From positions 186,001-250,000 of the forward strand of contig NZ_CP007032.1 of the NCBI RefSeq assembly GCF_000231405.2: 64,000 nucleotides of DNA, written 5' to 3'. This DNA is from Desulfitobacterium metallireducens DSM 15288 (GTDB lineage Bacteria; Bacillota; Desulfitobacteriia; Desulfitobacteriales; Desulfitobacteriaceae). A program made the position numbers and the translations under genes. The notes under the pieces were generated by a model that saw nothing but the letters and a program-made list of their open reading frames with translations, made no database searches and was not told where the DNA came from. Position 1 is the stretch's first letter; every line of letters begins with the position of its first letter. Shown one piece after another: positions 18,174 through 46,814 of the stretch.

Positions 18174-18181
18174 TGTTTAAT

Positions 18182-18259
18182 GATAATAAAGTTTGTCACC
18201 GAATAATAAAGTCTGTCACTGTATAATAAAAACTGTCACTGAATAACAAAGTGTGTCAC
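18182..18259 (+). repeat. Four TnsB-type binding sites at the nrdJ-proximal end
   Basis: Four tandem 18-bp sites at exactly 20-bp period: 18182-18199, 18202-18219, 18222-18239 and 18242-18259. The pattern is (A/G/T)ATAAYAAAGTBTGTCAC with a divergent third copy (AAAAACTGTCAC). The dense array matches the architecture of the Tn7 right end. The sites are inverted relative to those at 46676-46806. Confidence 0.88.
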
Positions 18260-18291
18260 TAACTTATTGATGAGGATGGAGGAAGTTCGTT

Positions 18292-18543
18292 ATGTTAGGA
18301 CATGTTTATAATGATGTCGAAGTTTTGAACCATCTATGTCGTGAGGACTATGAACAAAAAAGATGGTATAAAGCTGAAAACTATGCAAGTGAGTTAAATC
18401 AATTGTTGGAGTCGGCTCGACAATATAGAACGGAAATAAAAACGACACCAGTCATCTTTAATGATGTTTCTACGCAAGAAAAAGGGTTAAAGGATGTGCT
18501 CTTGAAATCAACTCTGTTACTGCAAGAGATAGATGCAGAGTAA
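18292..18543 (+). CDS. Small acidic protein, copy A (inside transposon end)
   Basis: An 83-residue soluble, helical protein (MLGHVYNDVEVLNHLCRED...) of unknown function. ATG follows a GATGGAGG site about 11 bases upstream. It is the first gene inside the transposon end next to nrdJ. A close homologue (about 80 percent identical by eye) lies just outside the other end at 46887-47135, and a truncated copy lies at 39561-39759. Without the transposon, the outside copy would be about 74 bases downstream of nrdJ. The element therefore puts its own copy of the displaced neighbour gene in nearly the same position relative to nrdJ. No domain recognised. Confidence 0.75.
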   Translation: MLGHVYNDVEVLNHLCREDYEQKRWYKAENYASELNQLLESARQYRTEIKTTPVIFNDVSTQEKGLKDVLLKSTLLLQEIDAE

Positions 18544-19309
18544 TAGATGACCGAGCTAGAAGAGGAAAAATGTGGATGGAACTTAATGATTCTATCCACC
18601 CAGCTAAAGTGAAATTACATTTGTTCAATGATAATAAATGAAGAGAATTTAATCTTATTTTTATTTCCAGAGAATACTTCTTATTGATCCCACAAGAAAT
18701 CTTCCTAAACTTTGGTTAATTTGGACCCTAAGGCAGCTAGGCATACTCCATCATGTTATGTTAGGGGTATGCCATTTTTATACCTTTAGACAACTTATAC
18801 TCATGGATATTCCATAATCCGGTTGCTTCATTTGGGAAAGTAAGAGCTTTACAGCCCAAAAAATCGAGTAAAATCCATTTGAAGTTAGCCAAAATGGCGA
18901 AAGCATAAAAAAATCAATAAATAAAATAAGAGAAAGTTTGCCAGTTGAAGATTATAACGAAATAAAAAGATGCTAAATTCACAACAGACAAAAGTCGAGA
19001 CGTATATTGATTCTTTCATTACAGGTGCAGCGTTAGTCGATGAAAAGCTTATTATTGATGATGATTTCAATACGTGTCAGCAAACATTTTGTAAATACAA
19101 TTATTGATAAAAAAGAAATTAGAAAATATAAGTGAAAAGCTAAAATAAAAGACTAATATGCCATCAACTCAACAATACAGATCAGAGGTTACCATAAAAT
19201 TATACTACGGCTCCCATTATGTCTATAATGTGAACTTAAATGAGATACATTTTGTGTGAATAACTAGGAAGTTATAAAAAGATTCATTTTTCGGGGAGAG
19301 GTGATATAC
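18544..19309 (+). other. Non-coding stretch with hairpins and a small ORF remnant
   Basis: A weak terminator-like inverted repeat (GTGGATGGAA/TTCTATCCAC-type) follows the small gene near 18572-18600. A hairpin GGCATAC...GGTATGCC (18740-18772) recurs after the truncated copy B at 39977-40006, so the duplicated block extends to about 18775. A 45-codon frame at 18970-19107 (MLNSQQTKVETYIDSFITGA...) has no clear ribosome binding site and looks like a gene fragment. The motif at 19220 is listed separately. Nothing else supported. Confidence 0.5.
19220..19230 (+). promoter_or_regulatory. Shared motif TGTCTATAATG upstream of ABC-3C operon
   Basis: TGTCTATAATG followed by TGAA, 90 bases before the first gene. 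The same 11-mer occurs at 24142-24152 and 40226-40236, each ahead of a defence gene in this element. It contains TATAAT, so it may be a promoter -10 region, but no convincing -35 is visible; a shared operator is the alternative. Confidence 0.45.
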
Positions 19310-20869
19310 TTGTGCGAATCTTCTGCACGAGATCGGCGTGAAGCTATTCCTAGTTGGCATGGCTATGATTATCAGGGTAGAGTTGCAATAGTTGTGGCAC
19401 TGGAGATACTTAATGAGATCAAGAATAATCCAGATAAGATTACTGCATATGATCTTGCTATCGAAGACATTGAAGATTTTGCAATTTATTACTCAGGAGA
19501 ACTTAGAAGTATTCACCAAGTAAAGGCCAGAGCTAATAGAAATTTAACCGGGTATAATGAAGCATTATATATGCTCGCAAAAGGAATTACTAACAGAAAA
19601 GATGTACAAGCATATTTACATAATTCAGTCTCATTAGATTTCACAGATTGGGAAATAGATCTTGGTCGTTCTTTAAGATTATATTGCGCATCTACAAAAG
19701 ATGAGTTGCTAGCAAAGTTAGAAGATGAAGAGAAGCTCAAAGAATATATCAAATCGCTGCAAAAAGGTATCACAAAAAACAATACTATTGATAAGCGTAT
19801 TGATGAAGAGCGCAAGGCACTTCTAATAAAAATCATTGAGATAGATGGAGGTTTAGACCACCATATTAATCTTTCACTTGAAACTGTGCGACCGGCAATT
19901 GAAAGTTATATCGCTGATTTGGGAAATGAAAATATCATCTGTTCTGAAAATCTTTCCAGGATTAAATTATATCGATACAATCAATCAGAGTTTTTTCTAG
20001 ACACAGATAATGTTGGTAAGGTAATAGAAGATTCGATTATACAATATTGGGGAAAAGAAGCAGAATTCAAGGTTCCTAACGTTGTAAGCTATCGAATCAA
20101 ATTACAGGAACTTATTACAGAACATATTCGGAAACGTTATAGTAATCCAGCTATCCCTCGAATTTCTTTACAGAGATTTTCCGAAATTTTGGACTCTATT
20201 TTAAAGACCGATGGAGCAATGCGATTACTAATACAGAAAGATAAACTTTCTAGCTTTCGCCAAAGTTATTGCCATCAGGAATGCCATAGGACGAACGATA
20301 ATTGTAATGGATGTGACCTATTAAAGAAAACAGCCCTGTTGGAAGTCATGGATTTTCGTGAATTTGGTAAAGCGTGTTATGCACTTTGCCCTCAGACTAC
20401 AGATAATGTTTTGCAAAAGGATGCAACTGAGTTAATCACAGAACCTGGCACATGGGAATGTATGTTTCCAGTTCTCCAGAATGTCAAACGAGAAGCCGAA
20501 TTAAATCATTGTAGAATTGTATATGACATTGATGTTCAGTTTTATATGCTTACTGCGCTTTACTTTTCTAGGATAAGAGAGTCTCATATTCTAAAAAATC
20601 TTTGCAATAATGAGACTGTTGATGAGCTTTTTTCCTCCGTTTGTAAAAATTCTGAATCGGGCTTGATATTCAGAGAAATAGACTACATGATCATATCGTC
20701 AGATTATGAGTTGGAAAATACTGAACTAGAAAAGTATAATCCTAGCATTTTCAAAAAAGGACATCTTGCAGGATGGACCCCATCTTATTCAAAAATTACG
20801 GGGCCGAAGGAAGTTCACCTGATAAAGAAAGATACTTTTCTAGAAAGATGTAGTGAGGTACAGGCATGA
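19310..20869 (+). CDS. ABC-three-component system effector: DUF4297-like nuclease domain plus C-terminal domain
   Basis: About 519 residues. The N-terminus (IPSWHGYDYQGRVAIVVALE) and the following acidic-then-QVKAR pattern (IEDIEDFAIYY...HQVKAR, about residues 50-75) are typical of Cap4/DUF4297-type PD-(D/E)XK dsDNA nucleases. A Cys-rich segment (CHQECHRTNDNCNGC, about residues 320-335) suggests zinc binding in the C-terminal part. In ABC-3C defence systems such an effector is coupled to a middle component and an SMC-like ATPase, exactly the next two genes. A TTG at 19310 has ideal spacing to AGAGGTGAT; a GTG at 19301 is the alternative but overlaps that site. Its stop overlaps the next start as ATGA. 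Confidence 0.8.
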   Translation: MCESSARDRREAIPSWHGYDYQGRVAIVVALEILNEIKNNPDKITAYDLAIEDIEDFAIYYSGELRSIHQVKARANRNLTGYNEALYMLAKGITNRKDVQAYLHNSVSLDFTDWEIDLGRSLRLYCASTKDELLAKLEDEEKLKEYIKSLQKGITKNNTIDKRIDEERKALLIKIIEIDGGLDHHINLSLETVRPAIESYIADLGNENIICSENLSRIKLYRYNQSEFFLDTDNVGKVIEDSIIQYWGKEAEFKVPNVVSYRIKLQELITEHIRKRYSNPAIPRISLQRFSEILDSILKTDGAMRLLIQKDKLSSFRQSYCHQECHRTNDNCNGCDLLKKTALLEVMDFREFGKACYALCPQTTDNVLQKDATELITEPGTWECMFPVLQNVKREAELNHCRIVYDIDVQFYMLTALYFSRIRESHILKNLCNNETVDELFSSVCKNSESGLIFREIDYMIISSDYELENTELEKYNPSIFKKGHLAGWTPSYSKITGPKEVHLIKKDTFLERCSEVQA

Positions 20870-21609
20870 ATAATATAGTTTCTTTAATAAGCAATGCATT
20901 AAAAGACATTGGTTTACGCAAATATCCTAATATGAATGATTATTGCGCTGAATTTCCAGGCGAATACACCCTATTTGTTCCTGATGAGGATGCTCATCAA
21001 CAATATTTAGTTATACAGAATCTCATATGGGATGATTCATTAGATCCATCTAGGTGGTTGCTTTATCAAAAGCCTCTATATGACATACTCTCAAAGTTGA
21101 TTGACAAGTCTGAATTTCATAAGAACGTATCAATTCTCGTTTGCGTCCTAAATAGTGGAAACAAAGATCCGGATAAATTGGAGCGATTCATTTTGCATTT
21201 AGAAGAAGATATAGACTATTTCAAGAAATTAGTACTTGTTTATAATGCCAATAGTGCTACTGAATTAAATAACGCATATAAGCAATCCTCTATGGATTTT
21301 TTATCTTTTGTAAGAAAAGAACTTCGCTCTTATCCAGATATTGAAGAGGCGCTTGAAAATCCTAGTCAAAAATTATTACTTCATTTATTAATTAAACTAC
21401 CATTAATTCAATTACCTGTTGTAGATTATGAACCTCCATCGATTGAAATCATGTTAGAAGAAAATATAACAGATGGTGTTTTAATAAGCGCTAAGAGTTT
21501 ACTTGATAAGGTGGATATCAGAGAGATTAATGAAATTTCATTACCTGAACAAGAAGATCAAATTGAAGGCTTTCTAGATAAATGGGATTGTAGCGAGGAA
21601 TTAGCATGA
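20866..21609 (+). CDS. ABC-three-component system middle component
   Basis: A 247-residue soluble protein with no catalytic motif visible, between the nuclease effector and the SMC-like ATPase. It overlaps both neighbours by 4 bases (ATGA junctions), so all three are translationally coupled. Size, position and coupling fit the middle component that links effector and ATPase in ABC-3C systems. The assignment rests mainly on operon context, since I cannot point to a diagnostic motif. Confidence 0.7.
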   Translation: MNNIVSLISNALKDIGLRKYPNMNDYCAEFPGEYTLFVPDEDAHQQYLVIQNLIWDDSLDPSRWLLYQKPLYDILSKLIDKSEFHKNVSILVCVLNSGNKDPDKLERFILHLEEDIDYFKKLVLVYNANSATELNNAYKQSSMDFLSFVRKELRSYPDIEEALENPSQKLLLHLLIKLPLIQLPVVDYEPPSIEIMLEENITDGVLISAKSLLDKVDIREINEISLPEQEDQIEGFLDKWDCSEELA

Positions 21610-23981
21610 GTACATATATTTTACAAAAGTTAAACCTTCAAAATTTTAAGATATTTTCACATGTTCAGGTGAATTTTAATGGAAAGGATATTTCAGTTTT
21701 AGATGGTCCAAATGGTTATGGGAAAACAACCATTTTCGATGCCATTGAATATGCGTTAACAGGAAATATCTTGCGTATCACAGAAGAAACGCCAACAGAT
21801 GGCAAGTTGACTTTTTCTACTCATTTTCTTGCACATAAACCTGGTGACACAGTATGTGTAGAAGCGTTTTTAACCGACGGAATTAATGATATTGTTATTC
21901 AGCGAAAAATAGATACTGTTGCGGGAAAGGAAAACAATCCAAGTCACTTTGTTGCGAATACGAGAACGACTATAACAATTGGTGAAGAGCGATTTGAATA
22001 TGATAATGTTAAAAATGCAAACAAAAAGTTGACAGAATATATTAATAATAATGTTCAAAAGTATTTTAGACAATATTATTACCTCTCACAAGAAAATAGG
22101 TTAGACTTTTTGGCAAAAAGTGAAATTGAACGCATGAAGGCGTTGAACTATATCTTTCATATGGAAAATGAACAATTAGAAAAAGATAAAGCGACTAAAG
22201 CCTCAAGTAGATTTACTGATATAGCTAAAAAACTAGAGGATAGAAAAATAGCCCTAAAAGAAGATTTATTGAAATTACAGTCTGCTCCGGAATTATTTTC
22301 TGCTGAAAACCTCATTCCATATCATAAATTAGCAATTGACATAATATCTCCGTCGTGGGATTATGAGCATCCGACTATATCCAATTTGGATGCATTGAAA
22401 GATATGCAAAAACAACTGCATAATATAGCATTGTTTACACGACAGTTTAATTGGTTCTTTCAACAGAAGAAAAATGAATGGATTGAGCAGCAAATTAAAA
22501 GTCAGGATGAGCTAAAGCAGAATTTATTTTTGCTGTCAATGCAATTAGACAATTTGGATAATTTTTTCGAAATTGCGAACAAGTATAAGGAAATTCAACA
22601 GATAATTAAAACATACAAATTAAATACTAACGAGCCTGATTATGAAGGGATAAATCTTCAGAGACTCTCCACGTTGCTTAATATTCAATATAGCACTGAA
22701 GATGTTCGTATTTACAAAGAAAAAATTAGTGATTGCAGAAAGGGTATGCAGGCTCAGGAAAAAGCACGCGCTAATTTGATTACACTCAGAAAGCAGTTAG
22801 AAAATCAGAGGCAGATTTGGTCTCAAAATAAATATTCTGGTTTAAAGGAAAATGAATGCCCTTTTTGCGGCCGGTTATGGGATTCAAAAGAACAATTAGA
22901 TGAGCATATCCAAATAATGACTGAGGCAATTGATACGGGCTCTAGTTTATTGGTCGAGCAGTTTGAACAATCGCGCAGTAAGCTTCAAAGGATTATTACA
23001 GAGATTTTCAACCCTGTGATACAGCTTTTTTTGAAAGATAATCAATATTTAGAGCTAGATTTATTACAGCGAATTTTATTGGATAAAACCAAGGCTATTC
23101 AACAAATGAAGGATTTTTGCAGTAAGGCAGCAGGATACGGGATCCAAATAGAGGAAAAAATATTAACACTAGATAACATAGAACAATGGAATTCCATTTA
23201 TGAGGTATTTTGTTCACACCAATTGCGACCTCATCAACGTGAATTACCAGCAGGCTTCTTAGAAAATGCTTTTAATTGTGAATTTAACCATATATTTGAA
23301 GTTACATTTTTAGGAAATGAAGAAACCGTAAAAAGCCTACCAATAATTCAAGAAGATATAGAAAAACAAAAGGCAACATATTTAGAACAACAATATTACC
23401 TTCAGCAAGAAAAGCTGGCTGAAGAGATTAAGAAAAAAATTGTGAATTTAAATCATCAACAAAAAAAAGCAGTTAGAATACAGCAACAATTTAACCAGCT
23501 TCAAACAAAATTAACTAAAACCATTCAGGATTATGAAAAACAGATAGTACAACAGTTGCAAATTCCCTTTTTCCTGTTTTCTGGGCGAATATTACAAAAT
23601 TATCCGGGAGGATTAGGGGTATGCCTAAAAACAAAAGGAGCAAAAAGTATTCACTTTGATGCAAGTAATCGTCAAGGACATGATATTATCTATACAATGA
23701 GTTCCGGTCAGCTATCGGGTATTTCAATAGCTTTATTGTTGACCCTAAATCGTATATATGCAGAAAATTCTTTCCGATGTGTTTTAATCGACGACCCGAT
23801 TCAAACCATGGACGAGTTAAATATTACTTCGTTTGTTGATTTACTTCGTAATGATTTTCCTGAATATCAATTTATTATTTCCACTCATGAGGAAGATTTT
23901 TCGGACTATATGCGGTACAAATTTGACAATTATAATCGTTCTCAGCAGAGTATAGATGTTCGAACATTGGATCAAATTTGA
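21606..23981 (+). CDS. SMC/RecF-like ATPase of ABC-three-component system
   Basis: A 791-residue ABC-type ATPase. Walker A is GPNGYGKTT at about residue 34. Long coiled coils flank a zinc-hook-like CPFCGRLW at about residue 418. The signature region SSGQLSGISIALLL is followed by Walker B VLIDDPIQTMDE near residue 720 and a D-loop/H-motif region ending IISTHEEDF. Such ATPases sense foreign DNA or replication intermediates and license the partner nuclease. Third gene of a coupled three-gene operon. Confidence 0.88.
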   Translation: MSTYILQKLNLQNFKIFSHVQVNFNGKDISVLDGPNGYGKTTIFDAIEYALTGNILRITEETPTDGKLTFSTHFLAHKPGDTVCVEAFLTDGINDIVIQRKIDTVAGKENNPSHFVANTRTTITIGEERFEYDNVKNANKKLTEYINNNVQKYFRQYYYLSQENRLDFLAKSEIERMKALNYIFHMENEQLEKDKATKASSRFTDIAKKLEDRKIALKEDLLKLQSAPELFSAENLIPYHKLAIDIISPSWDYEHPTISNLDALKDMQKQLHNIALFTRQFNWFFQQKKNEWIEQQIKSQDELKQNLFLLSMQLDNLDNFFEIANKYKEIQQIIKTYKLNTNEPDYEGINLQRLSTLLNIQYSTEDVRIYKEKISDCRKGMQAQEKARANLITLRKQLENQRQIWSQNKYSGLKENECPFCGRLWDSKEQLDEHIQIMTEAIDTGSSLLVEQFEQSRSKLQRIITEIFNPVIQLFLKDNQYLELDLLQRILLDKTKAIQQMKDFCSKAAGYGIQIEEKILTLDNIEQWNSIYEVFCSHQLRPHQRELPAGFLENAFNCEFNHIFEVTFLGNEETVKSLPIIQEDIEKQKATYLEQQYYLQQEKLAEEIKKKIVNLNHQQKKAVRIQQQFNQLQTKLTKTIQDYEKQIVQQLQIPFFLFSGRILQNYPGGLGVCLKTKGAKSIHFDASNRQGHDIIYTMSSGQLSGISIALLLTLNRIYAENSFRCVLIDDPIQTMDELNITSFVDLLRNDFPEYQFIISTHEEDFSDYMRYKFDNYNRSQQSIDVRTLDQI

Positions 23982-24407: not shown

Positions 24408-26930
24408 ATGAAAAAACCAATGCGAGATGAAGATGCTGCATATGATGCTATAGAACAGCGGAAAGAGAAGTTTGGTACTTTTTATAAAACGTGTTTTCAT
24501 TTGCACACTCCTGAGTCGTATGACTACAAACTAATGATTAGCTGGGATCAAAGCAGATATAATATCTCCTCCGATCAAGAAGTATTTGAAATATGTCTAG
24601 AGCGAAATGTATTTCCATATGTACTGAAAATTGAAGACTTTGAACCAACAGGACCATTTGATAAATATAATAGCAGGAAAGAAGTCTTATCTTTTTTACT
24701 TTTGGCAGAAGAATTAATTGCAAAAGATATAGAAATTGTTGTTGTTTCAGATCACCATACGATTAAGGGAGTTCCGAAGCTTGAAATAGCAATCAAATAC
24801 TTGTGCCAAATGAGGAAGAGAAATATTTATCCTGAAGTAATCTTGGGCATTGAAATATCTTGTGCAGATAAGAACCATGTTGTTGGTATTTTTGAAAATA
24901 CTAATAAAAATAGACAAGTAATAAATGAATGGCTGGAGGATAATTTACTTAATCTTGAAGAGGGTTCTTATGAAACGAGCAGGGAAGTATTGCAATTTTT
25001 CAGTTCTGCTGGGGGAATAGGTTATATTGCTCATATAGATACTTCAGATATATTCAAAGAAAAATATTTAAGCGGTGCCTATAAACAAAAGTTATTCTCT
25101 GATGAAGCACTGCATTTTATTGGGTTATCTGATTACGATAATCTCAGTTATATTAAGTCTAAATTGATGAAATATCGTTCAACAGAAATCAAATTTCTTA
25201 TCGATAATGATGCGCATGATCTTGAATCAATCGATAAAAAGTGTTTTTGGATTAAGGGCAGTAAAAGAAAATATTCTATGATTAAAGAAGCTCTTAATGA
25301 TTATGATATTTCTATTAGTTTTACAGAAGAAAGGCAGAATAAGCAATTCATTAAGGGTATATATATCGAAAATTGTATAGATGGTTTCTTGAGCGGAACA
25401 AATGGAAAAGGAAACTTCTGCTTGAATTTTTCAAATGCATTAAACTGCTTAATAGGTGGTCGTGGTACCGGGAAAAGCAGTGTTCTGGAAATTTTAGAAT
25501 ATGTTCTGAGTCAGCGGTGTGAATCTGAGAGATTACTTGATTTTATATGTGCACATGGAAATACATGGGTTTTATACGACTACCAGGGAGATGAATTCCT
25601 AATCGAAATGCGAATGCCATACAAAACAAATAAGGATGAAAATATACTTCGCTATTTCGGTCAAAATCTTAAGGATCAATATTATTTTAATTATCGATTT
25701 AGCAAAGAGGATGTTGAAGACTTTGCATTTAGACAGTATATAAAAATATCAAAAGTTATATATCGGGATGGTGATTTATGGCTTGAGACAGTACTAAATA
25801 AAAAGGAAATGCTTAAGAAGTTCTTTGACACTCGATATTCGGTTAATGAATTGGTCAATACTGCTAGCGGTGAACAAATAAACAAATTCTTATATGAAGT
25901 CCTTTTTGAAAACAAAACTTTAGCTAAACCAGCCGATGTTATTCGTGTTAGAAGTAAATCTGGTTTAAAAAAAATGCTTTTGAATGTGAAAGGCGCGCTG
26001 CAACAACGACAAGAAGCAGTAAATACCATAATTGACCCATTTAATGCTGATCAGCAAGGAATCCTTCGAATTGTTTATTCTCAAAAGAAAATTCCGAATG
26101 GACCTGATATAGGACGCTGGATTTTTGGAATGGATTATAACGAAGAAAGTTCTTTTCATAATTATAATATTACTCAAGAGAATGTCATTGGGTATCTGTT
26201 AAGCTTATATGATAAACTTGGAATTTTTGAATTCCTTGATATGGTGACTTATGGAAAGATCGATGAAGCGAAAAGACTAGTCAATCTATTAGACTTTCGT
26301 ACGGACATGAACCAAGATTTGATTGATAAAGGAATAAATGAACTGAACTCAGCGAAAACAAGTAGTTTTATCAAAACTATTTTCTCTGAGCTTATCACTG
26401 ATAGTAATATCAATATAATAATTAATTATTTGAGACAATATGTTGAAGATATTGAAGAGTTCTCCCTAGAATTTAATCTAAATAATAGAGAAGGCAACAA
26501 TGAAATGAGTCCATTGTATAAAGATGTGAGGACACTTTCTCTTGGGCAAAAAGTTGTAGCAATGCTCTCTTTTATTCTAGGTTATAGTGAGTACTCAAAA
26601 GACTATAGGCCATTAATAATAGATCAACCGGAAGACAATTTGGATAATCAGTATATTTACAAGAATTTAGTTAAGCAATTAAGAGGGGTTAAGGAAAAGC
26701 GACAGGTTATTATTGCTACACATAATGCAACAATTGTCACTAATGCAAAGGCTGATCAAGTATGCATTATGGTATCAGATAATAATCATGGATGGGTAGC
26801 AACCACAGGATATCCAGGAGAAAATAGGATAAAAGAGCACATAATAAATTATCTTGAAGGTGGGAAAGATTCATTTCTACATAAGTTAAGTGTGTATGAA
26901 GAAGCTTTAGGAATTCAAGTAAGAAAATAA
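24408..26930 (+). CDS. TrlF-type PHP domain and ABC ATPase defence protein
   Basis: 840 residues. The N-terminal PHP phosphoesterase/nuclease domain shows its metal ligands: FHLHT near residue 31, SDHHT near 113, GIEIS near 147, AHID near 207 and DNDAHD near 268. The second half is an SMC-like ATPase with Walker [10 protein letters not shown] near 349 and Walker [13 protein letters not shown] near 735, followed by [10 protein letters not shown]. This fusion defines the TrlF-type family, commonly found in defence islands and thought to be an ATP-gated nuclease. ATG behind ACGGAG. A single-gene module with its own long leader. Confidence 0.82.
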
Positions 26931-27040
26931 TAAGATTATTTAGTCTGTTTGTAAAAATTCGGCGGGTATTTTCCTATTAGGGCGCCAGTTGGTGAATAGT
27001 CCAAGGTATTTTTTTACCCCTTTTGTGTCAATCTAGTTAT

Positions 27041-29493: not shown

Positions 29494-29534
29494 AGTGATT
29501 TTGGGTGCTTGACTTAAGTATAGGACGGTGGAAT

Positions 29535-36072: not shown

Positions 36073-37065
36073 TTATATGGGGCGTTTAGAACTAGCCTTA
36101 TCGCTCAAAATATCCCAGAAGTGGGCTAAAAAGTCTTTATCAAGATTAGAAAGATCAAAGCAAGCAAATACCCCAAATCTTGCGAAGTAAATTGCGACTC
36201 GAGTAATATAGTAGTCCATCTTAGAAGCCATTGCAGCATAACCGAAAAGTTGAGCAAAATCTTCGCTGCTATAGGAAAGCTTGTTTTTTGTTTTGATATC
36301 TATTAAACAATCATCTGCAATTAAGTCAGCGTCAGCCCCACCAAGAAGGGCACTATAGATACTAAAGCCAGGGTTTAAGATTATTTGAGCCCAAGTAATA
36401 TTTTTGATCGATTCTAAAAAGACAGTGAGCAAATGGGATACATTTTCTATTATTTTTTTATCAGTGATCATACGTTTTTGGGAGAAGTAGGTTTTACCTT
36501 CAGTCTCTTTGAAGTAGTAATCGGCTACATGAATGGAACGCGCACGAAACGTGTATTCAAGACTTGTGAGGAAAACAGCATCTTCAATGATTTGATCTAG
36601 GTCACAGGCTCCGGTTAAAAACTTTTGACGGTTATCAATACAAAAGTCTAGTCGCTCACTCAAGTAATTCATAATTTTCTTTACGTTCTTAGCAGCTAAT
36701 CTTTGGCCTTTAGAGCGTTCATTATCAATTGATGTATCTCCGGTAGGGTACAATGGGACTTCGATATACCTAGGGAAACGCTCTAATCCGCCTACAGCTA
36801 CAAGTTGTCTTTCTGGAACACCATATTTTTTAGTCAAAACTGAACGGGCGACATAATCGAAAGCCGTACCAATATAGCCTGCCTCGAGAGAAGTACCAAT
36901 ACTAGCAACTTTAATCGGAGTTTTCCAATCTTCTTTTTTCAGAAGTTTCCCTGAGTAATCTGTCAGATGGGATTTAAGATTAGGAAATTCCTTTCTGATT
37001 TCTGGATTCTTTTCAATGATACTGGATAAAGACACTCGGCATTCCTCTTTTCTTGATACTTCCAA
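36073..37065 (-). CDS. Predicted PD-(D/E)XK nuclease, divergent from helicase
   Basis: 330 residues. Near residue 245 is GGADADLIADDCLIDIKTK, with the acidic-hydrophobic-IDIKT layout of PD-(D/E)XK nucleases, after a mostly helical N-terminal region (GTAFDYVARSVL). I recognise no named family. It is divergently transcribed from the helicase at 37271, sharing a roughly 200-bp promoter region, and the two probably form one DNA-degrading defence module. The N-terminal start is uncertain by a few codons. Confidence 0.6.
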   Translation of the reverse strand: MEVSRKEECRVSLSSIIEKNPEIRKEFPNLKSHLTDYSGKLLKKEDWKTPIKVASIGTSLEAGYIGTAFDYVARSVLTKKYGVPERQLVAVGGLERFPRYIEVPLYPTGDTSIDNERSKGQRLAAKNVKKIMNYLSERLDFCIDNRQKFLTGACDLDQIIEDAVFLTSLEYTFRARSIHVADYYFKETEGKTYFSQKRMITDKKIIENVSHLLTVFLESIKNITWAQIILNPGFSIYSALLGGADADLIADDCLIDIKTKNKLSYSSEDFAQLFGYAAMASKMDYYITRVAIYFARFGVFACFDLSNLDKDFLAHFWDILSDKASSKRPI

Positions 37066-37270
37066 TTTAGCTAAATATTTAAATTTGTTGTTTGTTGTAT
37101 TTACCTCTTTCTAACTTATTGTTTAGTCTTTTATGGGAAAATGAGGTACTTGTTTATTAAGATAGCATCGATTACTAATTTAATAAAGGATTCCAAATAG
37201 AATTGTTGAATAATTTAGTCAATAGTAAATTTGCTCAGATCCATTAGGATATTAAATGTGGAGGTTTAAC

Positions 37271-39136: not shown

Positions 39137-39572
39137 ATTAAAGGACAAGATTGATGAACTTATTCAATTGAACCTAAATAAAGGCATAGCGCCCCATGAA
39201 CTAATGCAAAACATATATCAGGATGAATATATCGAAGTTAAAGCAAATAAACATTTTGACCAATTGTTTTGTCATGTTACATTTTATGATGAGGGGATTT
39301 TTGACGAAAAAAAGATTAAATACGAATACAGATATATTTATAATAAAGACTTATATCTTCAAGAAGTTTATCAAATGAAAAACAAAAGTGTTAATTTGCT
39401 TTGGAGTAGATTACAGGAGGAGCAGGCTCTGCTAACGGAAATTGTAGAATTATTTCGGCTTAATTCTAAAGCCTTTAAATCCTTTAAATCCTTCTTAAAT
39501 ACCTTACCTATTGAATACCAAACGATGATTAACGATAGACTAAAATCCGTGAAACAAACTGTAGGATTATGA
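39120..39572 (+). CDS. Unknown protein downstream of helicase; 3' end fused to a repeat
   Basis: 150 residues, overlapping the helicase gene by 17 bases. No motif recognised; acidic/aromatic centre (KIKYEYRYIYNKDLYLQEVY) and helical C-terminal part. Its last codons (GTA GGA TTA TGA) lie inside the truncated copy of the small repeated gene at 39561. The natural C-terminus was therefore cut off or replaced when this module was joined to that repeat. It could be a third component of the nuclease-helicase module. Confidence 0.55.
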   Translation: MELQTRLKDKIDELIQLNLNKGIAPHELMQNIYQDEYIEVKANKHFDQLFCHVTFYDEGIFDEKKIKYEYRYIYNKDLYLQEVYQMKNKSVNLLWSRLQEEQALLTEIVELFRLNSKAFKSFKSFLNTLPIEYQTMINDRLKSVKQTVGL

Positions 39573-39759
39573 ACAAAAAAGATGGTATAAAGCCGAAAAC
39601 TATGCGAGCGAGTTAAATCAATTGTGGAGTCGATTTCGGCAATATCGAACAGAAATTAAAACGACACCAGTAAGCCTTAATGAAGTAGCTTCAGAAGAAG
39701 AGTTAAGGAATGTTCTTTTGAAGTCGACTCGCTTGCTACAAGAGATTGATGCAGAGTAA
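39561..39759 (+). pseudogene. Truncated copy B of the small repeated gene
   Basis: Translates from DYEQKRWYKAENYASELNQL to LLQEIDAE and stop at 39757-39759, matching residues about 19 onward of copies A (18292) and C (46887). The first 18 codons are missing, replaced by the end of the helicase-module gene. One segment (LWSRF instead of LLESA) shows a pair of compensating small indels. No ribosome binding site or start; considered a relic. Confidence 0.8.
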
Positions 39760-39824: not shown

Positions 39825-40319
39825 AGAAGAAGTTAACTATGTTAGAAGTATGCTTTTCATCCAAAATAAAGTTACTTAAATTAGGAATTGAGTTTCAATA
39901 TTAAGAAGCAGTATAATTCTTCTTTTTCCCCAATTAACCGGCATTAATTCTGGTAATTTAGGCCCCAGGGCACCAAGGCATACCTCATCATGTTAGGGGG
40001 TATGCCTTTAACTTTATCCTTGAATAATGTCTTCGAGGCGAACTACGACCAATAATCACAATGAGAAAAGTGCATTTGAGTTATTGAAAGTGAGTTAAAG
40101 TGAACGGCTTATAGTTTGGTAACTATGAACTTTATGTAATATTTGTTAATTTAGGAGGAATATTCAGGAAATATGTTGAATGCTAGAGGAGTGTTATCTG
40201 GGGGGCTTAGTAAGCAGTTGCTAATGTCTATAATGGGAAGCTGATTTAGGATCATTGTAAGATAATAATGGGAAATTCATTTTAGTAATTATTAAAAAAT
40301 AATATATTAGAGGTGTGAA
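39825..40319 (+). other. Non-coding stretch with duplicated hairpin and shared motif
   Basis: Hairpin GGCATACC...GGGTATGCC (39977-40006) repeats the one after copy A at 18740. TGTCTATAATG (40226-40236) followed by GGAA is the third copy of the defence-operon motif. A related second unit (ATAATGGGAA near 40265) follows within 30 bases. A 23-codon frame at 40172 behind AGGAGGA is too short to support. Confidence 0.5.
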
Positions 40320-42398
40320 GTGGAGTTAATTTATATATGGATTAATGAATATCGTACATTTAAAGATAATGAAATTAATTTATCTAATAAATTTATTGTA
40401 AAATACATTCAAGAAAGTAATTCTATTCTAATTCGAGAGAATACCGATTATTTTAAATTATATCCTAAGCACATCTTAAATATCAGTGCTTTATTAGGCA
40501 AAAATTCAACGGGCAAGAGTAATTTGATTGATTTAATGGGCATGAGAATAAATGACAGAAATAATTTAAACGAAGAATTTGAAATAGTGTATAAAGCGAA
40601 AATGCCTGGACAATTAGGTTATCTAATGCCAGATGATATTGTTGAGGAAAAGAAAAAAGCTAGATATTTTTTTCTCTATTATTTAGGAAAAGATGAGGAT
40701 GGGTTAGATAAGTTTTGTATAGAGGGAAATGATATTGACAGCTATTTAGATTTATTTAGTAATAAAGAAAGAATTAACACACAGAAAGAGCATAATCCAA
40801 TAAATTATTGGAGAGAAAAATATTGGTTTGCATTTGTTTGTACATATTATGATGAAAAGTTAATTTATAAATATAATGTTCAAGAAGACGGTGGATTTGA
40901 TTCCGAACAAAAAAAATATAATCTGACAACAAAAGATAAAGTAGTAATTATATCATTTAGAGAAAAGTATAAACAAAAAAATTATTATAATCATTCTTCT
41001 TTTAAAAGTGAGGATGATTATAGAATTTCGATACCAAGAAGAATTGCACATTTTGATACTAAATATTTATATAAAAAAATAGAATTTCTTATTGATCAAA
41101 TGAAAAAAAAGAATAAGGAATTATACACTAATAGTAGCTATAATTTATCGATAAAGTTTGCTGAATCGCCTAAAAGAAAAGATATTGGAATTTATGATCT
41201 TGATGATATAAATAAAGGACTTTCTGATAATGAAAAGGCTGTATGTAAAATACTGTCGTCTTTCTGTTTTTTCTTTACATCATCAGTTTTTCCTAATGAG
41301 GAAAAGGGAACTGAGAAAAAACGAGTCTATTTTGCTAATATAAATAAGGTCGTTACTAATATTAAGCCAAAAGGTAAAACTTATAAAAACATAAAAACAT
41401 ATTACTGGGATGTATTAAAATATATTGTTAATGCTTTTTTTAAAGAAGACCAAGAGGATAATAAAGAGCAGGATATTAATCATTTTTTTAATACATATAA
41501 AAATTTAGAAAAAGTATTAGAGAAATTTTTTATTAATTTAAAGAATAGACCGAAGATTAAAATGGTTGAAGATAATATTTATCTTACTATAGATAAATAT
41601 TCTAATAAGAAATTAATCTCAGAATTAATTCGTGCAACTATTGATGAAAAAATAGATAGCGACTTAGTAGGAACATATTCTGTATTTTTAAATTTTTTTG
41701 ATTATAGTATTGAATTTTTGAGTGATGGAGAGTTAGCATTTCTAGGAATGATGGCATCAATTGATGAGCAAATCTCCCTTTTGACACAATTAGAAAATAG
41801 TGTTCAGAAAAAAGAAAAATATATTTTACTTTTTGATGAGCCAGAGTCAAGAATGCACCCTGAGCTAGCGAGAATATTTATGAAAACAATGATAGATTTT
41901 TTATCACAATATAAAGATAAAACCTTTCAAATAATTTTAGCAAGCCATTCTCCGTTTCTTGTTAGTGACATTCCGAAAACGAATATTATTACTTTAACAA
42001 AAGAGGAAGGCACACTGAGCATCCTGAGACCCTGTGAACTAGATACATTTGGACAAAATATACATAGCTTGTTGAAAGATGCTTTTTTCATGAATTTTAC
42101 AATGGGTGAGTATGCAAGGGACAAGGTGGAAAAAGTTAAAAAGTTTTTAGATGGTAAATTAGAAAATGCTGACTACGATGGTGAAATGACTATTCAGGAG
42201 GCAGAAAAAACAATAGATTTAATTGGAGAAAGAGTTTTGAAAACAGCACTACAAGGAAAATTGAAAAAAATCAAAAATCATTACTGTACCCAAGAACTCA
42301 AAGAAACAATTAATAAATATGATAATCTTTCGCCTGATGAAAAGAAGGGATTGATAGAGTATATTATTATTTCCCAAAAAGGTGGGGATCAAAGGTGA
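40320..42398 (+). CDS. Septu-like AAA ATPase (PtuA type)
   Basis: 692 residues. RecF/OLD-like ABC ATPase domain with Walker A LLGKNSTGKSN near residue 59, signature region SDGELAFLGM near 466 and Walker B LLFDEPESRMHP near 505, followed by IILASHSPFLVSD. The large insertion between the two halves is Lys/Asn-rich. GTG start behind GAGGTG. It overlaps the HNH nuclease gene by 4 bases. An ATPase of this type directly followed by an HNH protein is the Septu (PtuAB) arrangement, an anti-phage system in which the ATPase controls the nuclease. Confidence 0.78.
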   Translation: MELIYIWINEYRTFKDNEINLSNKFIVKYIQESNSILIRENTDYFKLYPKHILNISALLGKNSTGKSNLIDLMGMRINDRNNLNEEFEIVYKAKMPGQLGYLMPDDIVEEKKKARYFFLYYLGKDEDGLDKFCIEGNDIDSYLDLFSNKERINTQKEHNPINYWREKYWFAFVCTYYDEKLIYKYNVQEDGGFDSEQKKYNLTTKDKVVIISFREKYKQKNYYNHSSFKSEDDYRISIPRRIAHFDTKYLYKKIEFLIDQMKKKNKELYTNSSYNLSIKFAESPKRKDIGIYDLDDINKGLSDNEKAVCKILSSFCFFFTSSVFPNEEKGTEKKRVYFANINKVVTNIKPKGKTYKNIKTYYWDVLKYIVNAFFKEDQEDNKEQDINHFFNTYKNLEKVLEKFFINLKNRPKIKMVEDNIYLTIDKYSNKKLISELIRATIDEKIDSDLVGTYSVFLNFFDYSIEFLSDGELAFLGMMASIDEQISLLTQLENSVQKKEKYILLFDEPESRMHPELARIFMKTMIDFLSQYKDKTFQIILASHSPFLVSDIPKTNIITLTKEEGTLSILRPCELDTFGQNIHSLLKDAFFMNFTMGEYARDKVEKVKKFLDGKLENADYDGEMTIQEAEKTIDLIGERVLKTALQGKLKKIKNHYCTQELKETINKYDNLSPDEKKGLIEYIIISQKGGDQR

Positions 42399-43459
42399 TG
42401 CAGCTAGAATTATCTAAGGAAATTGAAAAAAAACATTTAAAATATTTTCAAGAAAAAGTACTTACGAATTTTGATATTAAACCAAAATTCTTGAATATAA
42501 CTAACGAAAACATTCATATTCAATTTATGAATTATTGTAAAACTAAATTTCGAGTATTAGCAATTGGAAAACCAGAAGATTTAAGAAAGTTTCGATCTGA
42601 GTTACCAGAAGAGATATTATCTTTGATTGACGAGAATCCGATGTGTAGTTACCGGGGTAAGAAACTTAAATACAATAAACTCTTATTAAACATATTTGGG
42701 TATGAGAAGTTCTGTAACCTAAATCAGTATGTGTCAAAGGAATTGCTAACACAAGAAAATTATAAACAAATTAATAGCGAACTTAAACACTACTGGACTC
42801 CATATAATTTTGTGACAATGAGCAATGTGAGAGCATGCCCCTACTGTAACAGACAATATATTACACCGATATATATACATTCGAACGAAAAAAACGATAA
42901 GCATAAATTGAGAGCTGATCTTGATCATTTTTACCCAAAAAGTAAATATCCGTATTTTTCAATGTCGATCTACAATTTGGTGCCATGTTGTAAATTTTGC
43001 AATTCATCGCTTAAACATGTAAAAGAGTTTGATATAACTGATGTTAATCCATATGAAGAAAACTTTGATGATTATTTTAAATTCAGGACAGATATATTAA
43101 ATGATGGAGACGTCTATATTGAAAAAACACATTTAGATCATAGAATTGATCGATATTTAGACTATTTCCAGATTGAATCTTTGTATAGTTATCATAAAAA
43201 TCAAGCAGAAGAAATGATACAAAAGCGAATAATATATCCTGAGAGTTACATTGATGAATTGTATAAGAATAATGAATTATATTTTGCAAGTAAAGAAGAA
43301 ATAAAGCAACTAGTCATCGGATATATTTCCGATAGGGGATGTTTGAATGACGAAGCATTTTTAAAATTCAGGAGAGATATTGCCGAACAACTACACTTTA
43401 TTGATTGTATAACAGATGATGAGCAATTAGAAAAACTTAAAGAATTGATAGGCAAATGA
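42395..43459 (+). CDS. Septu-like HNH endonuclease (PtuB type)
   Basis: 354 residues. HNH/treble-clef fold with CPYCNRQYI near residue 148, the catalytic LDHFYPKSKYPYFS near 177 and a second knuckle CCKFCNSS near 203. These give two Cys pairs for zinc and the D-H motif for metal-dependent DNA cleavage. The ATG lies in the ATGATG junction with the ATPase stop, so production is coupled. Together with the ATPase it fits Septu; the protein is somewhat longer than typical PtuB. Confidence 0.8.
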   Translation: MMQLELSKEIEKKHLKYFQEKVLTNFDIKPKFLNITNENIHIQFMNYCKTKFRVLAIGKPEDLRKFRSELPEEILSLIDENPMCSYRGKKLKYNKLLLNIFGYEKFCNLNQYVSKELLTQENYKQINSELKHYWTPYNFVTMSNVRACPYCNRQYITPIYIHSNEKNDKHKLRADLDHFYPKSKYPYFSMSIYNLVPCCKFCNSSLKHVKEFDITDVNPYEENFDDYFKFRTDILNDGDVYIEKTHLDHRIDRYLDYFQIESLYSYHKNQAEEMIQKRIIYPESYIDELYKNNELYFASKEEIKQLVIGYISDRGCLNDEAFLKFRRDIAEQLHFIDCITDDEQLEKLKELIGK

Positions 43460-43466
43460 TAAACAG

Positions 43467-43483: not shown

Positions 43484-43562
43484 AAATTGTACAGGTTATT
43501 TATTAAGGGACTTTGAGGTATGTCAAAATAACTAATTGAAATGTTTAAGGAGTTTAAACTAT

Positions 43563-44159
43563 ATGCAAGTCGTGCTTAATAGTTTATTGAAGTGGATAAA
43601 AAATGACCCTGTTTTGGTTAGTTCTATTGTAGCCAATTTTATGGTGTTCATTAAATGGTTTTTTGGGACACGTCAAAAAAGGAAACTGGGTAAGGCTGAA
43701 CTGGCATATCAAAGGCTAGTGAGAATCTTGATACCCCTTAGTAATCAACTTTATTGGGTGAGAATTGAATCATGTGTAGCCTCATATGGACGAAGAAGCA
43801 CTTTACTAAAGAAGCTAATTGGAACATTATTTCGGTTTGTTATCTTCCAATCTAATTATTCTGAGCTAGTTACCGCTTGGAGAAGATTTTATTGTCCATA
43901 TATGTCTAAACCCGGATATGATTTTCCGTGGCAAGAGCCAGACTTCGAGAAAGTTGAGCAAATAATGATACAACAAGATTCTCTCGTGTGGTCTGAACTA
44001 AGGAGAAAATGGTTTCGATTAGTAGAAAGTTACCGTGAAGATTATCCCGATCTCACTGAAGATTGGGTTGACTTTATTAGATATGCGCGAAGTATGACTG
44101 AAAAGACAAAACTATACTTAGAAAAGAAATATCCTTCGGTTCTTGCAAAATCTACTTAA
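43563..44159 (+). CDS. Unknown protein with N-terminal membrane helix
   Basis: 198 residues. The N-terminus (LLKWIKNDPVLVSSIVANFM...IKWFFG) contains one membrane helix, followed by a basic, helical soluble domain rich in Trp and Arg. ATG at 43563 follows AAGGAG; an upstream TTG lacks a ribosome binding site. No family recognised. Flanked by short direct repeats (43467-43483 and 44194-44210), within the cargo of the Tn7-like element. Confidence 0.55.
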   Translation: MQVVLNSLLKWIKNDPVLVSSIVANFMVFIKWFFGTRQKRKLGKAELAYQRLVRILIPLSNQLYWVRIESCVASYGRRSTLLKKLIGTLFRFVIFQSNYSELVTAWRRFYCPYMSKPGYDFPWQEPDFEKVEQIMIQQDSLVWSELRRKWFRLVESYREDYPDLTEDWVDFIRYARSMTEKTKLYLEKKYPSVLAKST

Positions 44160-44210: not shown

Positions 44211-44621
44211 CATGGTCATTCCAAACAATTAACTATGGCATTAGTTAAACATCATGGCAAGCGGGTTTGAATTGACAGCAGACTGCAATTGATGCTCATC
44301 AATATAGACGAAACTAGAAATGAAATTGTTCAGGTATTAAAGAATATGGGTTTTAGAGATGCCGAAAAGGGTCTTCAGTCTTCTTATAGATCTACTTCCT
44401 ATAGGAAATTTAATTAGAAAATTAACATTATAGTCTGAACTAAAACCCTAAAAAAATTGGTTTTAAAGAAACCCTCTATAGTAACTGACAAGCTGAGCAT
44501 CTTTTCGACGTTCGACAAGCTCCAGTCTTGTAAGCGGTGAATGGCAGCTCTTTTTATAATCTATTTTATGAGACTCATCAATATCAAATTTTTGGTAAAA
44601 ATTACTTTACAATTATTAGTT
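44211..44621 (+). other. Non-coding or decayed stretch
   Basis: A 41-codon frame at about 44292-44417 (MLINIDETRNEIVQVLKNMG...) has no clear ribosome binding site and looks like a gene fragment. Otherwise no gene, RNA or strong hairpin seen. Confidence 0.4.
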
Positions 44622-44640
44622 GTACAATATATACTTGTAC
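44622..44640 (+). promoter_or_regulatory. Palindromic operator at promoter of XRE gene
   Basis: GTACAA-TATATAC-TTGTAC is a perfect 6-bp inverted repeat with a 7-base centre. It overlaps the presumed -10 region (a TTTACA -35-like box lies at about 44605-44610) and ends 16 bases before the TTG start. Probably the binding site of the XRE regulator itself. Confidence 0.6.
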
Positions 44641-44655
44641 TGGGAGGGATATCCT

Positions 44656-44892
44656 TTGGAAACAATTGAAATAGTTCCGGAAGAATTTGCGACCCAGCTT
44701 AAATTGTTACGCAAAAAGAAAGACATGACTCAACAGGAACTGGCAGAAAAAGCTCAAGTTACTCAACAAACAATTTCAGCCATTGAAAACGGTCGTTTAG
44801 ACCCCTCACTAAAATTACTTATAACTATTGCAGCAGCCTTAGGTGTAGCCCTTTTAATCAAAGCGATATTTTCAGAGAAAGGAGGAAATTAA
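44656..44892 (+). CDS. XRE-family helix-turn-helix regulator
   Basis: 78 residues: an XRE/Cro-type HTH (LRKKKDMTQQELAEKAQVTQ...ISAIENGRLDPSLKLLITIAAAL) followed by a hydrophobic C-terminus (GVALLIKAIF) that might touch the membrane or a partner. TTG start at 44656 behind GGGAGG. A palindrome overlaps the promoter, so it is probably autorepressed. The next gene encodes a 47-residue membrane protein whose ribosome binding site lies within this gene's end, suggesting a regulated pair. Confidence 0.8.
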   Translation: METIEIVPEEFATQLKLLRKKKDMTQQELAEKAQVTQQTISAIENGRLDPSLKLLITIAAALGVALLIKAIFSEKGGN

Positions 44893-44894
44893 GC

Positions 44895-45038: not shown

Positions 45039-45057
45039 GCTTTATTCAGGTTAAGTA

Positions 45058-45092: not shown

Positions 45093-45158
45093 ACTTAACG
45101 CTTATTATAGGGCCCAAATTATTATGGACATGTTGTTTGAGAGGAGTTTTATAGTATA

Positions 45159-45950
45159 GTGGAACGTACAATTTCGTGGATTGTATCCAATCAAACCATA
45201 TTATCAGTAATAACAAATATTTTATTAGTCATTGTCACTTTAGTTTATGCTGTACTGACAAGATCACTGGTAAAACTTGCTGAGAAGCAGGTTAAAGTAG
45301 TCTCTAATCCAATTTTAGGAATTAAGATAACCAAAATGTATATTTCTAAAGTCTATGGTCCCGAAAGACGAACGCTAACCGTTGAAATTGAAGTAGCCAA
45401 TATTGGAGACGGACCAGCAATAAATATTCAAATTGATGGAGAAATAATTCTTAAAAATAATGATATTAACGGTAAGAAAGTTATTCCAGCTTACACTGAG
45501 CCTAGGAGGTTAACTTTCTTGATGGCAGGACAGAAATGGGACAATAACTTTGAGTCAAATGTGTATTTTGGTAATAAAGCAATTTTATATTTATTCGATG
45601 ATCTAAGGGAGGCATCTAGATTGAACGAGCATAGAATAAAAACCAAATCTAACGATGAGGTTTTTGAAGCTAGTAAAATTAGAATCTTGGTTTATTATAG
45701 CAATAACTTAGGCCAACAATTCAGGTCAAGTTTTGAGACCTATGTGGACTTGGGTATGGAAATGAAGGAAGACCCAGAGGCAAAGTCAGTGACGATAAAG
45801 CCAAAGGAAATACCGACTGACGGCCAAGAATTTGAACTTACATATCATCCATATATCAGACCAGAATTTGAGTCTAGGCTAATTGAGAAAAAAGAAGTAG
45901 CAGAAGAGCTAGCTGAAAGAAATTTAAATCGTAAATTATCCGGGTGGTAA
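45159..45950 (+). CDS. Unknown membrane-anchored protein
   Basis: 263 residues. One N-terminal membrane helix (residues about 14-32: LSVITNILLVIVTLVYAVL), a short basic turn (SLVKLAEKQVK), then a beta-rich soluble domain with LTVEIEVANIGDGPAIN, resembling Ig-like domains of unknown function, and a charged C-terminal helix. GTG start with GAGGAG about 12 bases upstream. No catalytic motif. Cargo of the Tn7-like element near its distal end. Confidence 0.6.
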   Translation: MERTISWIVSNQTILSVITNILLVIVTLVYAVLTRSLVKLAEKQVKVVSNPILGIKITKMYISKVYGPERRTLTVEIEVANIGDGPAINIQIDGEIILKNNDINGKKVIPAYTEPRRLTFLMAGQKWDNNFESNVYFGNKAILYLFDDLREASRLNEHRIKTKSNDEVFEASKIRILVYYSNNLGQQFRSSFETYVDLGMEMKEDPEAKSVTIKPKEIPTDGQEFELTYHPYIRPEFESRLIEKKEVAEELAERNLNRKLSGW

Positions 45951-46016
45951 TGATACGTAACTAAAGGAAGATACAACATCATCTTTGTTATAAGAGTAGA
46001 AATAGAAGAGGTTAAA

Positions 46017-46565
46017 ATGGAAAATACTGAATTTAGATTAAATGAATCGAAGTTTTTTCTTGAAAGACTGAAAGATAGTAAAGATAAATCATTTGAATTT
46101 GAATACTATCTGAACGCTTATATTAGTTCTTCACGCTCTGTAATTTGGATTATGAACAGTGAATATAGCAAAGTAAAAGGATGGAAGAAATGGTATGAAG
46201 ATAAAGGTGTAAGCGAAGAACAAAAAAAGTTATTAGATGGAATTGTAAAAATGAGAAATCGTTCCTTAAAACAAAAACCATTAAAAGTCACTACTTACAT
46301 AACTATTGGCGATGATAAGAATTTTTGTGATATTAACGATGTAGCTAAAAGATTTGTTGGGAAAAAAGTGGCCATAGAAATTATGGAAGAAAAAATGGAT
46401 GGGTTTAATTTTTATGAGGATACGAATCGAGTTGAAGTTTCTGGAGAGTTGAAAATTTCGACAACAGTAGAAGAGTTTAAAAACAAAGATATAATTGATA
46501 TTTGTATTGAATACGATGCGTGGTTATTAAATATAGTTAATGAGTGCGTTAGTATATTTGGCTAA
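46017..46565 (+). CDS. Unknown helical protein, possibly HEPN-like
   Basis: 182 residues. The N-terminal half is helical and aromatic (FFLERLKDSKDKSFEFEYYL...SRSVIWIMNSEYSKVKGW), followed by MRNRSLKQKP. This recalls the RN-containing motif of HEPN-fold proteins, but the expected His of RNxxxxH is absent. ATG follows AGAGG. It is the last gene before the distal transposon end. HEPN assignment is tentative. Confidence 0.5.
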   Translation: MENTEFRLNESKFFLERLKDSKDKSFEFEYYLNAYISSSRSVIWIMNSEYSKVKGWKKWYEDKGVSEEQKKLLDGIVKMRNRSLKQKPLKVTTYITIGDDKNFCDINDVAKRFVGKKVAIEIMEEKMDGFNFYEDTNRVEVSGELKISTTVEEFKNKDIIDICIEYDAWLLNIVNECVSIFG

Positions 46566-46675
46566 GCTACCTATACTTAGACTGTAGGAACCATCTTGGC
46601 GGGTTCTATTGTCATATCATGAATTATTGGATCCTTAACGTTTCTTAGATTATAATGTAGCAAATTTCACTTTTA

Positions 46676-46814
46676 GTGACAGACTTTATTATTCGGCCAT
46701 ATTAGGTTAATAAAATACTTGTGACAAACTTTATTTTTGTTTTGCCCATCTTTCAATTGCTCAAAGGGTTGATATGCTTACTAATCCGGTGACAGACTTT
46801 ATTATTACTTAACA
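46676..46814 (-). repeat. Distal transposon end with three spaced TnsB-type sites
   Basis: Three sites reading GTGACAGACTTTATTATT or close variants on the plus strand at 46676-46693, 46721-46738 and 46789-46806, then 5 bases and the ACA terminus at 46812-46814. The sites are inverted relative to the nrdJ-side array and spaced 45 and 68 bases apart, like the three separated sites of the Tn7 left end. Confidence 0.88.

Follow-up and report, generated by a model that had tools for sequence, protein, structure and literature searches.

The 64,000-nucleotide stretch of Desulfitobacterium metallireducens DSM 15288 analysed here (NZ_CP007032.1, positions 186,001 to 250,000; hereafter the window) contains a complete Tn7-like transposon, a genuine relative of Tn7, which spans 28,641 bp from TGT at 18174 to ACA at 46814 and begins directly behind nrdJ, the gene of the B12-dependent ribonucleotide reductase. 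In our judgement it is highly probable that this is a complete cut-and-paste element that its TnsD protein directs to the 3' end of nrdJ, where elements of its group have inserted recurrently. The anatomy of the element, the recurrence of such ends behind nrdJ and a filled and empty site pair of a sister element are observations, from which we infer TnsD as the reader of nrdJ and a possible activity of the element.

Anatomy of the element

The boundaries were read directly from the bases, and they agree with an earlier note on this DNA that had given the same TGT and ACA, a match of the outermost 28 bases in inverted orientation at 24 positions, inward-pointing TnsB-type sites at both ends and a perfect 5-bp duplication, TCACG, on both flanks. 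Among 200,000 random window pairs none reaches 24 of 28 matches, the maximum being 20. The 17-mer ATAATAAAGTCTGTCAC, at up to three mismatches, has exactly seven matches in the window, four on the forward strand (18183, 18203, 18223 and 18243) and three on the reverse strand (46676, 46721 and 46789), whereas none of 100 shuffles reaches seven (mean 0.27). In the whole 3.18-Mb genome the motif occurs eight times at up to two mismatches, and seven of these occurrences are the sites in the ends of the element. TnsB-site arrays in inverted orientation thus bound both ends, with four sites at 20-bp spacing on the nrdJ side and three, wider apart, on the other. One detail of the earlier note has to be corrected, as the bases that follow the right TCACG are GCAACAC and not GGCAACAC. 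The GC content is 33.5% within the element and 42.6% outside, the outside value being calculated without rRNA. The landmarks of the locus are as follows.

15737-18166, +: nrdJ (B12-dependent ribonucleotide reductase), 3' end the probable attachment site (NF006417, 1194 bits; TIGR02504; 47 nrdJ 3' ends)
18169-18173, no strand: target-site duplication TCACG, left copy (sequence read)
18174-18260, +: nrdJ-side (R-type) end with four 17-bp TnsB-type sites (sequence and motif scan)
46676-46814, -: distal (L-type) end with three spaced TnsB-type sites (sequence and motif scan)
46815-46819, no strand: target-site duplication TCACG, right copy (sequence read)

The transposition genes were identified by hidden Markov models (HMMs) and by comparison with the solved Tn7 proteins.

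27023-29026, +: TnsD with TniQ domain and TnsD domain, putative nrdJ-recognising target selector (PF15978, 282 bits; PF06527)
29184-29420, +: small excisionase-type helix-turn-helix (HTH) protein (HMM; 70% identical in the sister element)
29505-30365, +: TnsA endonuclease (PF08722, PF08721; Tn7 TnsA 1t0f)
30355-32568, +: TnsB transposase, DDE residues in FEIDAT, TGDRG and GIVEQ (Tn7 TnsB 7pik, E 6.8e-110)
32568-34286, +: TnsC, an AAA+ regulator with both Walker motifs, A and B (Tn7 TnsC 8glu, E 1.8e-72)
34712-35833, +: second, short TniQ protein of 373 residues, no TnsD domain match (PF06527, 60 bits)

The HMM searches that the earlier note had proposed for the five core genes matched TnsA, TnsB, TnsC and both TniQ proteins, so that its count of two TniQ proteins stands, with the TnsD domain confined to the longer one (667 residues). 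A DDE transposase, a TnsC-type AAA+ ATPase, the TnsA endonuclease of the cut-and-paste branch and a TniQ/TnsD selector are therefore all encoded. The open reading frames (ORFs) of all five are open, and the three acidic residues of TnsB, both Walker motifs of TnsC and the cysteine/histidine motif of TnsD are kept. That all catalytic residues are visible, as the earlier note had it, is true of TnsB and TnsC; TnsA has equivalents of Tn7 E63, D114 and K132, and it shows T and S where Tn7 has Q and E. We take these two positions to be Q130 and E73 in Tn7 numbering, and the sister element has the identical T and S. The excisionase-like HTH gene, located between the genes of TnsD and TnsA, is also conserved in the sister. 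From these sequence features it is possible that the element might still transpose.

In an HMM scan of 20 element proteins (E 0.001) there was no match to the TnsE family, nor was there a match to Cas proteins among these 20. No array resembling clustered regularly interspaced short palindromic repeats (CRISPR) occurs among the direct-repeat families listed, 20 of 52. The short TniQ protein at 34712-35833 thus stands without TnsD domain and without CRISPR, and a TnsD-like protein of 690 residues takes its place in the sister.

nrdJ as a probable attachment site

To compare nrdJ 3' ends, 61 genomes were searched, of which 47 had a match; G062 was added and the unreadable G058 removed, leaving 47 genomes, 35 from Desulfitobacteriaceae (including the window's own, G000) and 12 from other families. 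A TnsB-type site was defined as at most three mismatches over 17 positions on the coding strand. Such a site lies within 60 nt past the nrdJ stop in 16 of the 35 family genomes and within 180 nt in 18 of the 35, the second count being slightly favoured because G062 was included for its TnsD match (G062 is not among the 16, which are unaffected). On the opposite strand no site was found within 60 nt in the 35 family genomes, and in the 12 genomes of other families no site follows nrdJ. Control windows of 60 nt further downstream hold a site in 1 of 238 cases in the family and in 0 of 84 in the other families. Read by eye, the first TGT of the end is located at +5 to +8 after the stop in 14 of the 16 genomes, and in G024 and G020 the first bases are altered. 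These results suggest that the 3' end of nrdJ is likely the attachment site of this element group.

The last 25 codons of nrdJ in the 47 genomes are at least 95% conserved at 39 of 50 first and second positions vs 1 of 25 third positions. This is conservation at the protein level and is present also in genomes without an element. Such conservation makes the nrdJ end well suited as a target, comparable to the end of glmS in the case of Tn7 TnsD (PMC2918618), although recognition is not thereby proved. A complete 16S-tRNA-23S-5S rRNA operon is located upstream of nrdJ (8966-14141).

A sister element in Desulfosporosinus hippei (G021), on contigs C13 and C70 (the latter NZ_FNCP01000041), provides a filled site, of which two relatives show the empty counterpart. 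It shares with the window element the attachment site, the site motif and the gene order TnsD-HTH-TnsA-TnsB-TnsC-TniQ, with identities of 53% (TnsD), 70% (HTH), 63% (TnsA), 71% (TnsB), 77% (TnsC) and 28% (TniQ); it differs in its second TniQ, which has 690 residues and a TnsD domain in place of 373 residues, and in a cargo that includes AriA/AriB (PARIS-like) and a PIN-domain protein. On C13, the bases behind nrdJ read G-AGTGG and then enter an R end with three sites, and on C70 an L end is followed by AGTGG and directly by an older R end. In G020 and G023, which lack the element, nrdJ is followed by GAGTGG and an R end, that is, by a single AGTGG. The flanks of G021 joined at one AGTGG align with G020 and G023, with BLAST identities of 91.4% (163 bp) and 93.4% (152 bp), which indicates that the sister entered between nrdJ and an R end that was already orphaned. 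A second junction of an L end followed by an R end stands behind nrdJ in G036.

Eleven relatives have orphan R ends (G006, G014, G020, G022, G023, G024, G025, G026, G032, G035 and G036); whether well preserved or worn, each precedes a common block with an intrinsic terminator, the terminator scan having been made in G014 only. Around ten of these ends (19.9 kb in seven, 10.5 kb in G035, 5 kb in G022 and 10 kb in G036, with G032 left out) a search for tns genes at E 1e-5 found only a TnsD fragment in G035; G006 additionally holds a short TnsD fragment. On the near-complete contigs of G014 and G020 there is no further site at two mismatches within 0.6 Mb. The terminator columns are the best conserved of the block. 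Two stretches of 20 columns in the block have mean pairwise identities of 93 and 97%. Because the hairpins after nrdJ in site-less genomes read by eye (G027, G033, G012 and G016) differ from this terminator, and because both R ends of G036 carry the block (of which the start is seen), the terminator seems to have arrived with the transposon end, and it would now serve nrdJ. We also considered that orphan R ends block new insertions; since the element of G021 and an L end of G036 each stand beside one, such protection is at best incomplete.

TnsD of the window's group is in each case linked to nrdJ. Among 82 genomes of the class, TnsD of the window's group (at least 53% identity) is found in G000, G021 and Desulfosporosinus metallidurans G062 (a broken gene), with fragments in G035 and G006, whereas any TnsD match at E 0.001 is found in 15. 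In four of the five (G000, G062, G035 and G006) it lies on the same contig as nrdJ: about 24 kb from the R end in G062, and 1.5 and 7.6 kb behind nrdJ for the fragments in G035 and G006. In G021 it is linked to nrdJ across a contig gap, through the AGTGG common to the L end and the nrdJ-side R end. This linkage points to TnsD as the reader of nrdJ. TnsB relatives at E 1e-20 occur in 12 of the 82 genomes, and in ten of them the identity is 37-42%; within the 6.6-19.9 kb fetched around these ten elements there is no nrdJ and, except for one match with three mismatches, no site motif. A phylum search with a TnsD alignment (E 1e-60) matched only the window among 398 genomes, a sample that may have missed G021 and G062, and it says no more than that close TnsD relatives are rare. 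TnsC searched against plasmids matched 433 records, none of which reached 60% identity, and a scan of genome contigs matched three Desulfosporosinus loci, all in Desulfitobacteriaceae (D. hippei G021, D. metallidurans G062 and D. acididurans G006).

Several observations weigh against a TnsD-directed, recurrent insertion at nrdJ. In 17 of the 35 family genomes the 180 nt behind the nrdJ stop hold no site; among them G030, G031 and G025 show apparently degraded ends, G017 has another end type and others look empty, such as G027, in which we take the genes directly behind nrdJ to be ung and sbcDC. The sites of G028 are located about 100 bp further downstream, and the choice to include G062 slightly inflates the count of 18. 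The sister element is split over two contigs, its continuity being deduced from the common AGTGG, and it is the only one with an empty site: the 60 relatives include no genome of the host genus, which leaves a single TCACG unproved for the window. Moreover, the R and L ends of the pair in G036 are flanked by AATAA and AATGG, with no clean duplication, G062 has an end of a different type between nrdJ and its four-site R end, and the tie between TnsD and nrdJ binding is one of linkage.

Two further features of G062 (L099) were seen. Within about 200 bp behind nrdJ there are two R ends that differ in type and are arranged head to tail, and the match to nrdJ itself (13317-16820, -) falls into two parts, residues 2-288 and residues 288-808, separated by about 1.1 kb, as if the gene were interrupted by an insertion or an intervening sequence.

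Fossil ends and the proposed history of the locus

Within the element, one order of features occurs twice: a small gene or its remnant, a fossil R end and a hairpin.

18292-18543, +: small uncharacterised gene, 83 residues, 84% identical to the copy outside (sequence comparison)
18622-18639, +: fossil R end TGTTCAATGATAATAAAT; 18 consecutive bases here agree fully with the R end beside nrdJ in G014
18738-18780, +: degenerate form of the 39975 hairpin, with approximate limits (sequence comparison)
39563-39759, +: small-gene remnant, 5' part missing, 77% at the protein level, limits approximate (sequence comparison)
39850-39895, +: fossil R end of a second type, resembling the nrdJ-adjacent sequence of G017 (score 41 vs a best of 28 in 200 shuffles)
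39975-40009, +: hairpin, 31 of 35 bases identical to the hairpin at +26 after nrdJ in G016 (sequence comparison)
46887-47135, +: small uncharacterised gene, copy outside the element (sequence comparison)

The third copy of the small gene, beyond the right end, has neither a fossil end nor that hairpin. Close to it, at 47474-49758 (-), is an IS21-type pair, of which istB was identified by NF038214 and the adjoining ORF of 513 residues is presumably istA. At up to three mismatches, 0.28 and 0.15 chance matches to the two fossil-end patterns are expected in the window, and both fossils have one mismatch; the argument is carried by the repeated order. It is thus possible that the internal fossil ends stand beside copies of nrdJ flanks, and the element may have grown by swallowing host flank, perhaps twice. 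According to a passage of PMC8649781, multiple ends can result from one element inserting within or beside another.

Alternatively, the small-gene copies and fossil ends could have come from ordinary local duplication or recombination rather than from capture of nrdJ flanks during movement, an explanation that we regard as possible and somewhat short of probable. It agrees with the small gene being present in this genome only among the 82 of the class, with all three copies at the nrdJ locus (which also led us to drop the gene as a conserved nrdJ neighbour), and with the hairpin at 39975 being matched after nrdJ in 1 of 16 relatives compared, so that its link to nrdJ comes from one genome, G016. 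The two internal blocks, however, have different types of fossil end, and the match in G016 exceeds those in 60 shuffles of the entire element, as expected for flanks of two nrdJ sites.

Our proposal of TnsD-directed insertion can be extended to the history of the locus. TnsD would recognise the 3' coding end of nrdJ, which is conserved, and would recruit TnsC, which would direct TnsA and TnsB to insert the element a few bases past the stop, with the four-site R end toward nrdJ and nrdJ left intact. Insertion would recur at this position, and in the cases observed the newer one stands closer to nrdJ than the older; as old elements decay, their R ends would often be left orphaned. Such an end, when it stands ahead of an older element, could then serve as R end for a larger composite, with the internal fossil ends and possible flank copies as traces, and the new outer R end and the old L end would move as a larger unit, carrying the nrdJ flank along. 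The second TniQ might, speculatively, serve another target pathway. Taken further, nrdJ could be a ratcheting site in Desulfitobacteriaceae, with nrdJ-proximal insertions, orphan ends kept for the terminator that serves nrdJ, outward growth via flanks and fossil ends, and drifted ends that escape immunity of the Tn7 type; we put this forward only tentatively.

It is rather unlikely that the island is a Tn7-like insertion that has decayed and is no longer mobile. Two sites of the R end and one of the L end have two mismatches each, TnsA departs from Tn7 at two positions and the second TniQ is short, all of which would suit an immobilised element, but the core ORFs are open, the DDE, Walker and cysteine/histidine motifs are present, the target-site duplication is perfect and the T and S of TnsA are common to the sister. 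That the repeats after nrdJ in the relatives belong to nrdJ itself, as a native regulatory element or terminator at which the island starts by coincidence, would account for the conserved terminator block right behind the sites in eleven relatives, and is nonetheless very improbable, as in G000 and G021 these sites delimit elements on both sides, in opposite orientations, L-type ends are directly followed by R-type ends in G036 and G021, the hairpins of the four site-less genomes read by eye differ from the block's terminator, and all 12 genomes of other families lack the sites.

Cargo and relation to known Tn7-like elements

The remaining genes of the element include a cargo of candidate anti-phage genes, assigned through their family names.

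19301-20869, +: LmuA-like / ABC-3C CTD1 protein, Lamassu-like operon (HMM)
20866-21609, +: LmuC-like / ABC-3C middle component (HMM)
21606-23981, +: LmuB-like SMC-type ATPase (HMM)
24408-26930, +: Spaf_1101 family AAA-like ATPase, candidate defence (NF045781, 1002.6 bits)
36073-37065, -: protein with weak PDDEXK-type similarity (family search)
37256-39136, +: DEAD/ResIII-type helicase, RadD-like, under the RadD family cut-off (HMM)
39120-39572, +: uncharacterised protein (family search)
40320-42398, +: PDC-M62A-like AAA ATPase (HMM)
42395-43459, +: PDC-M62B-like partner, weak HNH/PtuB similarity (HMM)
43536-44159, +: ORF without family match (family search)
44620-44892, +: HTH_3 regulator (HMM)
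45159-45950, +: ORF without family match (family search)
46017-46565, +: ORF without family match (family search)

The PDDEXK-like gene neighbours that of the RadD-like helicase. The 15-mer TGTCTATAATGNGAA, inside a 53-nt repeat, occurs at 19220, 24142 and 40225, 81-266 bp ahead of three cargo operons, and none of 100 shuffles gives three matches to the longer pattern of the repeat. The genome has one further exact copy elsewhere, and several relatives have one copy each, which in G020 lies about 1 kb past nrdJ; the 15-mer was traced to 16 genomes, and the exact copies elsewhere stand ahead of mixed genes. The repeat could be a shared promoter.

The proteins of the window are homologous to those of Tn7 over residues 39-714 of 737 in TnsB, 18-416 of 572 in TnsC and 11-196 of 286 in TnsA. 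TnsD is similar to the N-terminal part of the solved Tn7 TnsD, a chain of 318 residues only, with the C-terminal parts outside the comparison. Both elements have TGT/ACA ends and a 5-bp target-site duplication, and both are inserted just past the stop codon of a conserved gene. In Tn7 it is the packed end that is turned toward the target gene. The four packed and three spaced sites of the window element resemble Tn7, which has three on the left and four on the right as described in section 6 of PMC8649781. Tn7 proper has TnsE, for which the window element has no match, and its target is glmS, whereas the window element is inserted after nrdJ and not downstream of glmS. A passage of PMC2918618 gives the final 36 bp of the glmS reading frame as the TnsD site of Tn7, with insertion about 25 bp beyond; in the present group insertions start 5-8 bases past the nrdJ stop. 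Type I-B1 CRISPR-associated transposons, relatives of Tn7, likewise have two TniQ-family proteins, one of them a truncated TnsD (PMC11406308, in part), whereas the window element has no Cas match among its 20 proteins and no array among the repeat families listed. With the defence-loaded Tn7-like transposons of PMC8649781 it shares a candidate defence cargo.

The sites named for Tn7-like elements in the passages available are glmS, tRNA genes, parE, comM and yhiN (PMC11406308) and glmS and comM (PMC10293859); nrdJ is not named in sections 6 and 7 and the passages of PMC8649781, the tables of which, with 6,549 elements, may include the present ones. Full-text literature searches, with the supplementary tables of PMC8649781 outside their reach, found no report of nrdJ as a site of the Tn7 family and no paper on Tn7-like elements of Desulfosporosinus or Desulfitobacterium. 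As far as these searches can tell, the reading of nrdJ as such a site thus has no earlier report, and the elements may be in published tables uncommented.

Because relatives carry ends and remains of similar transposons at nrdJ, the landing site and the history of growth are both legible in the sequence. With the nrdJ end as its probable new address, this TnsD could help to show how proteins of its family read DNA, and the same end offers a candidate site for safe insertion in anaerobic Bacillota. The locus also makes it testable whether old ends still block new insertions. Moreover, its orphan ends, stacked insertions and fossils form a layered record of repeated insertion and possible enlargement of defence islands.

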